Counted from the stretch's first letter, positions 20,759 to 30,827 are shown. The stretch: DNA of 64,000 nucleotides from Chloroflexota bacterium (GCA_009692845.1 SHYK01000004.1:124001-188000), one strand, 5' to 3'. A program made the numbers and translations. Notes: generated by a model from the sequence alone, not told the origin.

Positions 20759-21802
20759 TTGGACGAAGCACAAAACCAGGTACTCCGCCAGGTCGGACCC
20801 GGTACTCCGATGGGGGAATTGCTCCGCCGTTACTGGCACCCGGTCGCCGTGGCCCAGGACCTCGACGAAAAACACCCGGTTCGGCTGGTACGCCTGCTCT
20901 CGGAGAGCCTCGTGCTGTTCCGCGACAAGCTGGGCGGGGTCGGCCTCATGCAGGATAAGTGCCCCCATCAGGGCACCTCGATGCTCTACGGCTTCCCCAC
21001 CAAACGAGGCTTGGCCTGTCCATCTCATGGATGGCTCTTCGAGACCGGTGGGTTCTGCCTCGGGGCAGTCATGGAGCACATCGAGGTTCGCGCCTATACG
21101 GTCCGTGAGCAGGCCGGCCTTTACTGGGCGTATCTGGGACCCAAGCCTGCGCCAGCCCTTCCATTGGATGACGTGCTCGGGGATGACGTGTTGGGGCGCA
21201 CCGACCGGCGGCGGCGCATCACCGTCTATCCCCAGATTTCAACCAATTGGTTCGCGGAGAGCCGCTATGCCCTGGACCCGTGGCGGCTCAGGGGGCACCA
21301 GGTTCCTGAGCTGCTCGGCGATCCTGGCCGCGCGGTGAAGCACGTCTCCTTCAGCCCCGCCGAGTACGGGATCAGCAAAGAAATCGTCCATACGGACGGA
21401 AGCGTGAAGCGGGAGCCGCTCCTGTTCCCCACCCACCTGCGGGCGGGTCCCCTCTGGCTGCTCACTCCGGTCGACGCGACTCAAACCCAGGTCATAACGA
21501 TCGATACGGTCCCCATTGAGGATCGAGGCATTTCGGAAGGGCCAGCGGCCGGATCGGCCGAGCCACCGGAGGTCGTTTATCTGCAATCGCAGGAGCGCGG
21601 CGACGACTGGGACCCCAATGCGCGGTGCAGCTTTTACTCGCCGTGGGGCCGCGCTCTGGGTGCCGACGCGGATCAGCATGAGACTCCCGGCCTCTCCCTA
21701 CTCCAGGATCTCCTCCTTCGCGAGCTCGACCGAGTCGCCCGAGGTGAGGATCCTATCGGCGTCATCCGGGACGTCGATCACCCGCTCGTCCCGACCGAAT
21801 AG
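20759..21802 (+). CDS. Rieske [2Fe-2S] protein with degenerate oxygenase domain (paralogue 1)
   Basis: The N-terminal Rieske domain follows the family opening VGPGTPMGELLRRYWHPV. The cluster ligands C68-P-H70 and C87-P-S-H90 are intact. The overall plan matches phthalate/vanillate-type oxygenases (about 350 residues). In the C-terminal domain, however, the iron-binding helix reads NWFAESRYALDPWRLRGHQ: the Asp remains, but the first His of the D-x2-H-x4-H pattern is Arg and the next His is out of register. Reduction to an electron-transfer or structural role is inference. The tail RELDRVARGEDPIGVIRD is shared with the other three Rieske proteins. TTG start with GAGGAGG upstream. Confidence 0.85.
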   Translation: MDEAQNQVLRQVGPGTPMGELLRRYWHPVAVAQDLDEKHPVRLVRLLSESLVLFRDKLGGVGLMQDKCPHQGTSMLYGFPTKRGLACPSHGWLFETGGFCLGAVMEHIEVRAYTVREQAGLYWAYLGPKPAPALPLDDVLGDDVLGRTDRRRRITVYPQISTNWFAESRYALDPWRLRGHQVPELLGDPGRAVKHVSFSPAEYGISKEIVHTDGSVKREPLLFPTHLRAGPLWLLTPVDATQTQVITIDTVPIEDRGISEGPAAGSAEPPEVVYLQSQERGDDWDPNARCSFYSPWGRALGADADQHETPGLSLLQDLLLRELDRVARGEDPIGVIRDVDHPLVPTE

Positions 21803-21876
21803 TCTTGACGAAGGGCCGGCCGCGCTTCGCCGCCGCGTGCTAGCGAGTCGGCCGACCACGCCGATCCCTTAGCGCG

Positions 21877-22110
21877 TTAAGGCTCTTCCTCAGCATCCTC
21901 CTCGTCGTCGAGGTCATCAGGGATGCCGCCGGCCAGACCGAACAGCAGCCACTGTTCGAGCTCTGCTTGGAGCGATTCCTGGCATTCTTCCAGGGTGTCC
22001 GCTTCAACCGCTGCCACTTCCATGCCGGGCACCTCGCCGACATAGGTGCCGTCGCTCCGCTGCTCGAAGTGCGCCTGCTCCATAAGCTGCTGCACGAAGT
22101 CGCTGATCAT
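21877..22110 (-). CDS. HicB-like small protein
   Basis: This 77-residue protein has the HicB-type partial RNase H-like fold: AHFEQRSDGTYVGEVPGMEVAAVEADTLEECQESLQAELEQWLLFGL, then a very acidic tail DDLDDEEDAEEEP. There is no DNA-binding domain and no adjacent HicA toxin, so it is either an orphan antitoxin or one of the many HicB-like proteins of unknown role. I prefer the ATG at 22110 over the ORF-track start at 22140, because GGTAGGG precedes it. It lies antisense between two Rieske genes and interrupts an otherwise co-directional block. Confidence 0.7.
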   Translation of the reverse strand: MISDFVQQLMEQAHFEQRSDGTYVGEVPGMEVAAVEADTLEECQESLQAELEQWLLFGLAGGIPDDLDDEEDAEEEP

Positions 22111-22229
22111 TGTCCCTACCGCCAATCGCTCGCCAAGCATAGCAATAATCGCTACCCATAGAATGGATGGTTCTGGTATGCTTCACACCGTTAGGCGACC
22201 TAATTAAAAGCGTTGGCATGGAGATAAGA

Positions 22230-23378
22230 GTGGTCCTGGCTTCCCAGCAGGACTTGACCCGGGTCGGGCCCGGAACCCCAGCGGGTGAGCTTCTGCGCCG
22301 GTATTGGCTGCCGATCGCCCCCGCCAGCGAGATGACCGAAGAAAACCCGATCAAGGCCCTCCACGTGTTGGGTGAAGGTCTGGCGATGTTCCGGGACAAA
22401 TCCGGGCGCATCGGCTTGATGCAAGAACGCTGCACCCATCACGCAGTCATGATGTACAACGGCCACGTCGAGTCGGACAGCCTCGCTTGTCCGCTTCACG
22501 CCTGGCGGTTTGATCTCGAAGGTAATTGTTTCGTCATCGCCTACCGCGAAAAAGTCTACCCCATCGCCTGGGCCAACGCGGTCGCCTACCCGGTGAAGCG
22601 CTACGCGGGAATGCTATGGGCCTACATGGGTCCTCGCCCGGCCCCGGAGTTCCCCCGCTACGAGGTGCTCGACCGCACCGACGGTCGACGCCGGATTACC
22701 GTCCACCCCAGCCGGAAACGGAATTGGCTGGACTTGGTGGAGGATGCTCTGCAATCGGAAGCTGGCGAATCGGACGGCGCTTCGACTAACTTTTCGCTCG
22801 CCTCGGATGGAATCGTAAGGGAGGGCAACCTCGAGAACGACCCCGCTTCGGGTCAAAAGCTGATCTTCCCCGTCGCCTTCGAGACCGACCGTTCGCTTTG
22901 CTTGCGGACCCCCATAGATGACGCGCACACCTGGGAGGTGATCGTAGAGTTCATTCCCGACTCGGAGCCCATGTCGGTTGATCCAGCCAACGAAGAGCCG
23001 GAGGTCGTTTACGGCCAGCCCGACGCGGCCGAAGACCCGAACGCGGCATTGCGGGGATTCTTCTTCGGGACGGCGGAAATGAAGCCCCCCGAAGTAATAA
23101 AGATGTCGGATGAGATCAAAAAGGTTGCGATGGGCGGGTTCTTTTTCGATAGTCCCGCCGAGAAGCCGGGCGGATTTTTCTTCGATACGCCCGCGTCAGC
23201 CCTTCCCGTGGAGCCAGAGCGCTACGCGCCGCCTCAGCAGCATTCAGAAGATGGGGTGGCCCTGTTCGAGGCACTGCTCCACCACGAGATTCAGCAGATG
23301 CAGGAGGGCGCAAATCCAATGGGAATCGTCCGCGAGGAGCAAGAAACCCCGGTTGAAGCCGGTTCGGCGCAAAGCTGA
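22230..23378 (+). CDS. Rieske [2Fe-2S] protein with degenerate oxygenase domain (paralogue 2)
   Basis: This 382-residue paralogue has an intact cluster site, C68-T-H70 and C87-P-L-H90. The iron-site helix is replaced by NWLDLVEDALQSEAGESDG, with no His at all. I place the start at GTG 22230 (GGAG 6 nt upstream), because the ligand positions then match paralogue 1 exactly; the upstream ATG at 22218 is the alternative. Near the C-terminus is a unique stretch with three GFFF(G/D) units (RGFFFGTAEMK, GGFFFDSPAEK, GGFFFDTPASA). It ends with the shared NPMGIVREEQE-type tail. Its stop overlaps the next start (TGATG), so paralogues 2 and 3 are translationally coupled. Confidence 0.85.
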   Translation: MVLASQQDLTRVGPGTPAGELLRRYWLPIAPASEMTEENPIKALHVLGEGLAMFRDKSGRIGLMQERCTHHAVMMYNGHVESDSLACPLHAWRFDLEGNCFVIAYREKVYPIAWANAVAYPVKRYAGMLWAYMGPRPAPEFPRYEVLDRTDGRRRITVHPSRKRNWLDLVEDALQSEAGESDGASTNFSLASDGIVREGNLENDPASGQKLIFPVAFETDRSLCLRTPIDDAHTWEVIVEFIPDSEPMSVDPANEEPEVVYGQPDAAEDPNAALRGFFFGTAEMKPPEVIKMSDEIKKVAMGGFFFDSPAEKPGGFFFDTPASALPVEPERYAPPQQHSEDGVALFEALLHHEIQQMQEGANPMGIVREEQETPVEAGSAQS

Positions 23379-24463
23379 TGACTGCCGCCGATCCGGAAGC
23401 CGCCCTCCGTCACGCCATTGCCGAACAGATGGGCGTCACTGATGGTGAGGTTACCCTCACCTCGGAAGCCACCGAAGCAACCGCGCACGACATCGTGCTG
23501 GGACGCACTGGCCCGGGGACTCCGTGTGGCGACCTGCTCCGTCGCTACTGGTACCCGATCGCCCTGGTGCGTGATCTCACCGAAGAGCGCCCAATCAAAG
23601 CCGTTCGCATCCTGTCTGAGACCCTTGTCCTCTTCAAAGATGGGACAGGTAAGGTCGGGCTCATGCAGGACCGCTGCACCCACGTGGGCGGCCCCATGAT
23701 CTACGGCTGGATCGACCCCAAAGGGCTCGGCTGCGGATTCCACGATTGGGTCTTCGATACCGAGGGCAATTGCTTCTTCAAGTTTTACAACCGCTACATT
23801 CCTCGGCCATGGGCGAAAGCCAAAGCCTACCCGGTTCAGCAGTACGCCGGGATTTACTGGACCTACGTCGGCCCCGAGCCGATTCCCGCCCTGCCCAGGT
23901 ACGATATTCTGGCGCGCACCGACGGCACCCGAAGAATCACCGCCTACCCCGAAATCCAGGCCAACTGGCTCGCGGACGGGATCGGCGACGCTTCCGTCCC
24001 GCCAATTTCGGCTGACCAGACCGAATCGACCCAATTTGCATTGACCACCTACGGAATCACGAAGCGTACGGTCAGCCGGACCGGTGAGATCGACGAGCAG
24101 GCGCTGATCCTGCCGACCCATCTCCGCACCGACGCCCTCTGGCTGCGAACTCCGATGGACGATGGCCACATCTGGCAGGTTCGCGTCGATTTCGTCCCGG
24201 GCCCGGAGAGTGGAATCGACCCCGCCGAGGAGACACCCGAAGTCGCCGACGACGAGTCGCACCACGCCGATGCGGCAACGATCCCGCCCTTTGTGAGCCT
24301 GGACTCGTGGGGAAGCGGGGGAGGCCCGAATGCCGACCGCGGGCAGGTCCTATTGCGCGCCTTGCTCTTGCAGGACCTACATCGGGTCCATCAGGGTCTC
24401 GATCCCCTGGGCACCGTCCGTAATCCCGAGCACGCGATTATCAACACCAAGCTAAATAGCTAA
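23378..24463 (+). CDS. Rieske [2Fe-2S] protein with degenerate oxygenase domain (paralogue 3)
   Basis: This 361-residue paralogue has a 40-residue N-terminal extension before the family opening TGPGTPCGDLLRRYWYPIAL. The cluster ligands C100-T-H102 and C119-G-F-H122 are intact. The iron-site helix is replaced by NWLADGIGDASVPPISADQ, which has no His. The beta-sheet core (PTHLRTDALWLRTPMDDGHIWQV) and the tail LLLQDLHRVHQGLDPLGTVRN are kept. The fold is therefore preserved while the catalytic iron site is gone. Coupling by TGATG to paralogue 2 suggests a fixed stoichiometry, perhaps a heteromer (inference). The MFS gene follows after 51 nt. Confidence 0.85.
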   Translation: MTAADPEAALRHAIAEQMGVTDGEVTLTSEATEATAHDIVLGRTGPGTPCGDLLRRYWYPIALVRDLTEERPIKAVRILSETLVLFKDGTGKVGLMQDRCTHVGGPMIYGWIDPKGLGCGFHDWVFDTEGNCFFKFYNRYIPRPWAKAKAYPVQQYAGIYWTYVGPEPIPALPRYDILARTDGTRRITAYPEIQANWLADGIGDASVPPISADQTESTQFALTTYGITKRTVSRTGEIDEQALILPTHLRTDALWLRTPMDDGHIWQVRVDFVPGPESGIDPAEETPEVADDESHHADAATIPPFVSLDSWGSGGGPNADRGQVLLRALLLQDLHRVHQGLDPLGTVRNPEHAIINTKLNS

Positions 24464-29510: not shown

Positions 29511-30827
29511 ATGGCCATTCGCAATGCACAGCAGGAACTCCTATTCCGAGTCGGACCTGGCACGCCTTCGGGTGAAGTCCTGCGACGCTATTGGCTGCCC
29601 GTTGAAACCTCCGCCAACCTGAGTGGCGGCCGCGGGCCGGTGCAGCCCAGCGCCAAGAACCCGGTTTCGGTCAAAGTGCTCGGAGAGAATCTCGTGCTAT
29701 TCCGAGACGGGTCGGGGAAGCCCGGCCTGCTCGCCGAGCACTGCTCCCATCGGGGCACGTCCCTTTGCTACGGTCGCGTCGAAGAGGATGGCCTCCGCTG
29801 CATGTATCACGGCTGGAAATACGATCGGGAGGGCAACTGCATCGAGACCCCCGCCGAGCCGCCGGACAGCAACTTCCGGCTCACGGTCAAGCACCCCGCT
29901 TATCCATGCGTCGAAATCGGGGGCCTGATCTTTGCCTACCTGGGCCCACCCGAGAAGCAGCCGCCGTTTCCGAAGTATCCGTACCTCTACCGCGATGACG
30001 GAATCATCGTGGCCGGCAAGGGTAATCGGATCCAGCATTCCAACGTATTTCTCCAGACCTTGGACAACGTGCTGGATGTCTGGCATCGCGAGATCGCGCA
30101 TGGCTGGTTCAAGGGGGGACCCGCCCCGGGAGCTATTCACCATGCCCGAGGTGATGAGCCCACCACGCCAATCAAATTCGAGAAGACCCCCTGGGGGGCC
30201 TGCTATGTGACCCTGCAGAACACTCGCCAGCCCGGCATTTACGAGTACCACGAGACCCACGCGGTGCTGCCGGTCCAACGGGGGCGCAGGACGAGCAGCG
30301 TATGGGCCGTGCCCACGGACGATTACACCACGCGCTGGTTCGGCACCTCCTTCCACGCCTATGACGAGCATGGCAAGATTCCCGAATCCGCGATTCGCCA
30401 GATGCAGCAGAACACGCCCTCCGACGGAGGCGGCCCTTTCTACGACGGCTGGTTCGAGGACGTCGGACACTGGTGGAACCTGGGCCACCCGCTGCGCCAG
30501 GGGCCGATCTGGGAAGACGAGGCGATCATGAGCACTCAGGGTCCCGAGGAGCGCGGACGCCTTCCGGACTGGGACAAGTGGCGGCTGGGCACCTCGGACC
30601 GGGGCGTTGTAATGATGCACGAGCTATGGGAAGAACAGGTCGAGCGGGTACAGGACGGCCTTGATCCGATCGGGATCATCCGGGGACCCGAGGCCGAGCA
30701 GATCATGCCGATGCCCGGCGACGTCCTGAACCTGAGCTGGGAAGAGGGCAAGCGGCGCTTCGACTTGTCGATCGAAGAGCGCATGGAAATGTCGCTCAAG
30801 GAGCTCCAGGAGCGCGGCCAGCGCTAG
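29511..30827 (+). CDS. Rieske non-haem iron ring-hydroxylating oxygenase (paralogue 4, catalytically complete)
   Basis: This 438-residue oxygenase has the opening VGPGTPSGEVLRRYWLPVE, Rieske ligands C78-S-H80 and C97-M-Y-H100, and a canonical mononuclear-iron site in LDVWHREIAH (D-x2-H-x4-H, near residue 190). EDEAIMSTQGP is the usual site of the third acidic ligand. It resembles phthalate 4,5-dioxygenase-type alpha subunits, which use a separate reductase; none is in this window. The tail VERVQDGLDPIGIIRG is shared with the three degenerate paralogues 5-9 kb upstream. ATG follows GAAAGGAG. It is convergent with the solute-binding protein gene across a strong hairpin. Confidence 0.92.
   Translation: MAIRNAQQELLFRVGPGTPSGEVLRRYWLPVETSANLSGGRGPVQPSAKNPVSVKVLGENLVLFRDGSGKPGLLAEHCSHRGTSLCYGRVEEDGLRCMYHGWKYDREGNCIETPAEPPDSNFRLTVKHPAYPCVEIGGLIFAYLGPPEKQPPFPKYPYLYRDDGIIVAGKGNRIQHSNVFLQTLDNVLDVWHREIAHGWFKGGPAPGAIHHARGDEPTTPIKFEKTPWGACYVTLQNTRQPGIYEYHETHAVLPVQRGRRTSSVWAVPTDDYTTRWFGTSFHAYDEHGKIPESAIRQMQQNTPSDGGGPFYDGWFEDVGHWWNLGHPLRQGPIWEDEAIMSTQGPEERGRLPDWDKWRLGTSDRGVVMMHELWEEQVERVQDGLDPIGIIRGPEAEQIMPMPGDVLNLSWEEGKRRFDLSIEERMEMSLKELQERGQR

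Follow-up and report, generated by a model that had tools for sequence, protein, structure and literature searches.

Rieske oxygenases are threefold oligomers, and a [2Fe-2S] cluster of the Rieske type transfers, or senses, a single electron. Three genes related to the phthalate dioxygenase-type members of this group (PDB 7fhr, 7fjl/7v25 and 9ina; COG4638) are found at positions 20,759 to 24,463 of a 64,000-nucleotide stretch of DNA from a Chloroflexota bacterium (GCA_009692845.1, SHYK01000004.1:124001-188000), here referred to as the window. The encoded proteins, P1, P2 and P3, share with the phthalate dioxygenase-type enzymes the N-terminal arm GPGTPxGELLRRYWxP, the Rieske domain and the order of the domains, and these enzymes are the best matches of P1 both in sequence and in fold. 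However, the trio lacks the His/His/Asp iron site as well as the PxE/Arg face of the cluster, and the C-terminal tail is shortened. From the sequence comparisons below we conclude that P1-P3 are maintained under relaxed constraint and that the loss was selective. They are very probably maintained non-oxygenases, and a reuse of the oxygenase fold for a role other than oxygenation is suggested.

Other described Rieske systems resemble the trio only in part. Rieske ferredoxins, such as HcaC and AndAb, are also [2Fe-2S] carriers without an iron site. However, they are single-domain proteins of about 100 amino acids, while P1-P3 have 347-403 amino acids and a whole second domain. An assignment of P1-P3 to the Rieske ferredoxins was rejected, as the NCBIfam ferredoxin models score far below their cut-off and the second domain is present. 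In NdmA/NdmB, two subunit types are co-assembled but both are catalytic, unlike P1-P3, which have no iron site. Kunugi et al. reportedly found in 2013 that chlorophyllide a oxygenase in Micromonas has two chains, of which one carries only the Rieske cluster and the other only the iron; this Rieske chain is similar to the trio in being without an iron site. With this precedent, the claim of the original prediction, an earlier reading of the stretch from its sequence alone, that no described family has this composition is too strong. For the Micromonas enzyme, PMC9615114 documents only the presence of two chains.

The split enzyme needs a partner chain with an iron site. The source genome (1.88 Mb, 89% complete) contains nine Rieske matches: P1-P3, four canonical oxygenases, namely the fourth paralogue P4 and three copies on contig 3, and two small proteins similar to ferredoxins. 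None of the four canonical oxygenases matches as such a partner, and an iron chain without a Rieske cluster was not found, as all four keep both centres; the PF00355 search would miss such a chain, no search was made for it, and the genome is incomplete. Kinases and proteases are familiar examples of families with pseudoenzymes. In a literature search, with most subscription papers outside its reach, no description of maintained Rieske pseudo-oxygenases was found, and the combination of "pseudoenzyme", "Rieske" and "oxygenase" gave no match.

The Rieske domain (PF00355) is above the Pfam cut-off in all three proteins (E-values 2e-12 to 5e-16), and no other domain was detected in them by the Pfam scan. 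As predicted, the ligands of the [2Fe-2S] cluster (CxH...CxxH) are kept in every copy, 12 out of 12 in total; in P1 they are C68-P-H70 and C87-P-S-H90 (20,960-21,028, plus strand), located in invariant columns. The iron helix D-x2-H-x4-H, on the other hand, is absent from P1, P2 and P3. When P1 is aligned with the relatives L011 and L012, which have xVDPWHLQILHQ, only the remnant ALDPWRLRGHQ is seen (21,269-21,301, plus strand), and in the alignment the helix is replaced by LVEDALQSEAGES in P2 (22,734-22,772, plus strand) and by GIGDASVPPISAD in P3 (23,978-24,016, plus strand). These three strings are exactly those given in the original prediction. The third ligand belongs to the segment QDxxxWETQGPIxDR..ERLxxSDRG, which in P1-P3 has been deleted or scrambled to the point that it cannot be recognised, in a region where the automatic alignment is ambiguous. 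In P1, the QDxxxW..QG..R part is lost at 21,590-21,679 (plus strand), which is disordered in the structure model (residues 278-307), and P2 and P3 have lost both segments that bear ligands. Of 169 Rieske-oxygenase-like proteins collected from the source genome and its relatives, 163 have the first iron histidine and 165 have the second, so the absence of the site from P1-P3 is not due to chance.

The losses also extend beyond the iron site. The CLETPAEP stretch following the second cluster loop is replaced in P1-P3. The arginine of CxHR, present in 156 of 158 canonical copies (the other two are gapped there), has become Q in P1, H in P2 and V in P3, and the proline of PxE, which is located beside the cluster and present in 154 of the 158, is likewise replaced, by V, A and F, respectively. 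Four face positions are all kept in 151/158 canonical copies; P1 has lost two of them, P2 four and P3 four. Further, the bridging aspartate is missing in P2 and P3. According to a review, such an aspartate links each cluster to the iron of an adjacent subunit, and an insertion in the Rieske domain makes contact with the catalytic domain across the subunit boundary (PMC12445004). We infer that the lost arginine, proline and other residues are located on that inter-subunit face. The earlier statement that everything but the iron helix is intact does therefore not hold, as the third-ligand segment, CLETPAEP, the CxHR arginine, the PxE proline and the C-terminal tail are all altered or lost.

The AlphaFold2 models rest on 7 sequences. 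In the model of P1 (predicted local distance difference test score, pLDDT, 71; predicted template modelling score, pTM, 0.74), the arm and the Rieske domain are confident, while the helix-grip domain is weaker and is disordered where the iron site used to be. The catalytic domain is reduced to a single strand, some short helices, a beta-sheet and a helix at the C-terminus. The best Foldseek matches of this model in PDB are phthalate and isophthalate dioxygenases, with template modelling scores of 0.6-0.7. The model of P3, with a pLDDT of 62, is weak.

In a tree built with the iron-site columns removed, P1-P3 form one clade (98/96), which is the sister of a canonical pair (99/91), L011 (G003:C140) and L012 (G002:C44), from two related genera. 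Trees that move single blind copies, i.e. copies without the iron site, to the canonical side are disfavoured (approximately unbiased test, p 0.009-0.04). L011 and L012 are 37-50% identical to the trio and have the segments LWLRTPxDDxHTW and RTDGxRRITxxP in common with it. However, their iron motif DPWHLQILH and third ligand are intact, their branches are slow and they are single copies. One clade placed as sister to intact enzymes indicates that one lineage probably lost the iron site and was then triplicated; the sequence evidence for this order of events is good but not final.

We suggest that P1, P2 and P3 descend from a single Rieske oxygenase of the phthalate dioxygenase type, which lost its mononuclear iron site and was triplicated next to purM. 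The copies would then have been retained for a function in which the [2Fe-2S] cluster and the main part of the fold are required, but no chemistry with oxygen. The sequences show the common origin, the loss of the three iron ligands and of cluster-face residues, the retention of the cluster ligands, the N-terminal arm and the core, and a continuing constraint, while the function is predicted. As the cluster ligands are kept three times while the hand-over face and the iron site are lost, the most likely role appears to be a redox one with another partner: P1-P3 would bind the Rieske cluster and serve as subunits that transfer electrons or respond to the redox state, for a partner other than the iron of a neighbouring oxygenase. 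This role, predicted from the residues kept and lost, has in our judgement slightly less than an even chance. The whole sequence of iron-site loss, triplication and retention for a cluster-dependent, non-oxygenase job is the best explanation, and we give it an even chance of being correct. The three proteins may assemble as a P1-P2-P3 heterotrimer, which is plausible because of the threefold oligomers of Rieske oxygenases. It can be speculated that a homotrimeric oxygenase became a three-gene heterotrimer, working as an electron-transfer or redox-sensing complex and using the GFFF repeats of P2 for docking, but this extended version is quite unlikely.

Maintenance is indicated by several features of the genes. 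There are no stops or frameshifts in the frames of P1, P2 and P3, and the G+C content of third codon positions (GC3, 0.73-0.76) is similar to that of the neighbouring genes. Among P1-P3, the pairwise proportion of silent differences (pS) is 0.65-0.72 and that of amino acid-changing differences (pN) 0.41-0.45; the silent sites are close to saturation, which makes the pairwise ratio of nonsynonymous to synonymous rates (dN/dS) rough. Near-saturated silent sites in open frames imply that the copies have persisted for a long time. Of 40 family-invariant positions that lie outside the iron segments, P1 keeps 36, P2 35 and P3 36 (107/120 in total), compared with 36-46% identity to the canonical sister elsewhere (Fisher p 1.8e-7 to 1.1e-9). 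All invariant positions are retained in the N-terminal arm (8/8 per copy, 24/24 in total) and in the strands before the iron helix (6/6 per copy, 18/18 in total). The GFFF repeats of P2, which vary at synonymous sites, and the Rieske domain and helix-grip sheet retained in the P1 model point the same way. The open frames, the normal codon bias and the kept invariant sites support the earlier view that simple decay is unlikely.

Still, P1-P3 could be relics that are not yet broken, left over in a reduced genome from an array of oxygenases that has otherwise disappeared. The size of the source genome, 1.88 Mb compared with 3.5-4.4 Mb in most relatives, would fit this, as would the fast branches, several in-frame deletions and the occurrence of the trio in a single species, with its absence from the nearest relative (G004). 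We consider this unlikely, since three genes have reached near-saturated silent sites without any stop, most invariant positions outside the iron site are kept with a normal codon bias, and the losses cluster at the iron site and the cluster face rather than being spread. Several observations nevertheless weigh against P1-P3 being maintained redox proteins. Their branches are 0.7-1.4 substitutions per site long, whereas those of the canonical sisters measure 0.14-0.20; at a similar dS, dN is about 0.6 compared with 0.16, i.e., the constraint is clearly relaxed. PurM of the source genome is not fast, so the acceleration is not genome-wide. Long branches may also attract each other in the tree. 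No orthologue of the trio was found in any other genome searched, so the constraint between species is not measurable. The source genome already encodes the two small Rieske-ferredoxin-like proteins, so that an extra carrier is not obviously needed, and both the cluster binding and the partner of P1-P3 are predictions.

The original prediction also proposed a hetero-oligomer. The blind proteins would then join a canonical oxygenase, either P4 or a copy on contig 3, and their clusters would feed the canonical iron, or the proteins would only stabilise the complex. Electrons are passed between adjacent subunits in Rieske oxygenases, and NdmA/NdmB form alpha3-alpha'3 hexamers (PMC12445004). P4 is located only 5 kb from the trio. 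Moreover, blind homologues were found beside canonical members, as the original prediction had asked to be checked: a second blind lineage, L139 (G003:C112, 4750-6246, plus strand) and L167 (G001:C223, 1294-2439, minus strand), 57% identical to each other, adjoins a canonical copy in each of two related genera. Here, the iron helix reads VDPVQLIALR in L139 and VDPLQVMVLH in L167, the third ligand D is changed to T/S, and L167 has also lost one cluster histidine (C-x2-H to C-x2-A). However, in contrast to the trio, both proteins are full length and keep the bridging aspartate and all cluster-face residues; this lineage is independent of the trio and milder in its losses. The idea of a mixed oligomer fits L139 and L167 better than P1-P3, where the CxHR arginine and the PxE proline, near-invariant in the 158 canonical copies, are lost from all three proteins and the bridging aspartate from P2 and P3. 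All four canonical copies, P4 included, are also distant (25-33% identical to P1); P4 is no nearer to P1-P3 than the others, and three genes lie between P3 and P4. The co-occurrence part of this proposal is thus borne out, while for the trio itself a mixed oligomer is improbable. A third possibility is that P1-P3 are ligand-binding or regulatory pseudoenzymes, with a small molecule bound in the emptied helix-grip (SRPBCC) domain and a cluster that has a structural role or senses the redox state. The reduced catalytic domain of the P1 model has the general SRPBCC layout, and a major facilitator superfamily (MFS) transporter and an acetoacetyl-CoA synthetase are encoded downstream. However, the pocket is precisely where the model has low confidence, no conserved residues were identified in it, and a functional tie to the neighbouring genes is conjectural, which leaves this rather improbable. 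Finally, several histidines downstream of the cluster in each protein could hint at a different metal or cofactor in place of the old iron site, as had also been proposed. In the alignment, P1, P2 and P3 do not share any His or Cys besides those of the cluster, so there is no shared replacement site of the His/Cys kind, and with both ligand segments deleted in P2 and P3 a new site is extremely unlikely.

If P1-P3 are confirmed as maintained pseudo-oxygenases, the trio would split the electron-carrying half of an oxygenase from its chemistry, and would reveal the residues, the CxHR arginine and PxE, that the family keeps solely for electron hand-over. Genome tallies of "ring-hydroxylating dioxygenases" in oxygenase-rich genomes would then include proteins unable to oxygenate.

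In the nearest relative by PurM (G004, 75%, genome 76% complete), purM is present but not followed by the trio, and no match to a Rieske oxygenase was seen. In a phylum-wide profile search of 400 genomes with the trio, the strongest matches outside the species were canonical where inspected. Among viral contigs, P1-P3 and canonical queries found one canonical relative and no blind one, and among genome contigs P1 found two distant relatives (Roseomonas and Mesorhizobium), neither being the trio. Three genomes of 3.5-4.4 Mb, G001, G002 and G003, belong to the same family as the source genome and have at least 150, 116 and 142 matches to the trio profile (E <= 0.001), respectively, some of them partial genes. 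These numbers exceed the expansion of up to 62 oxygenases per genome in SAR202 group VII (PMC6946804). No FNR-type reductase (PF00175, E 0.001) was found in the source genome (G000) or in G003. One protein, L112 (G003:C143, 2029-3333, minus strand), was rejected as a motif-less candidate, as both histidines are kept and the helix aspartate is shifted by one residue; it otherwise looks canonical, with VSDAHNSALH instead of VDSAH. Two proteins in the relatives' set, L067 and L020, are distant.

At the locus, which is placed next to purM, the three Rieske reading frames are open and at the predicted coordinates on one strand. P1 (20,759-21,802, plus strand, 347 amino acids) has a TTG start with GAGGAGG upstream. 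P2 (22,167-23,378, plus strand) has 403 amino acids as called, but its true start may be the ATG at 22,218. P3 (23,378-24,463, plus strand, 361 amino acids) overlaps the stop of P2 by TGATG, as predicted. All three copies had been described as coupled. However, a UPF0150-like gene on the minus strand (21,877-22,110, 77 amino acids, PF21748, E-value 3.7e-16) is located in the gap between P1 and P2, so that translational coupling looks limited to P2-P3. This small protein, which we take to be HicB-like, has no obvious toxin partner adjoining it. A promoter scan did not find a consensus site. P4 (29,511-30,827, plus strand) is, as predicted, a complete oxygenase about 5 kb downstream of the trio, with the iron motif DVWHREIAH at 30,075-30,101, but it is a distant paralogue, only 31% identical to P1. 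P2 contains an insert (23,055-23,200, plus strand) with three GFFF(D/G)(S/T) motifs, in which the peptide is conserved while the synonymous codons differ. As a genome-wide tag the motif was rejected, with one further GFFFD site in the same genome and scattered sites in relatives; possibly, the repeats in P2 are a docking motif.

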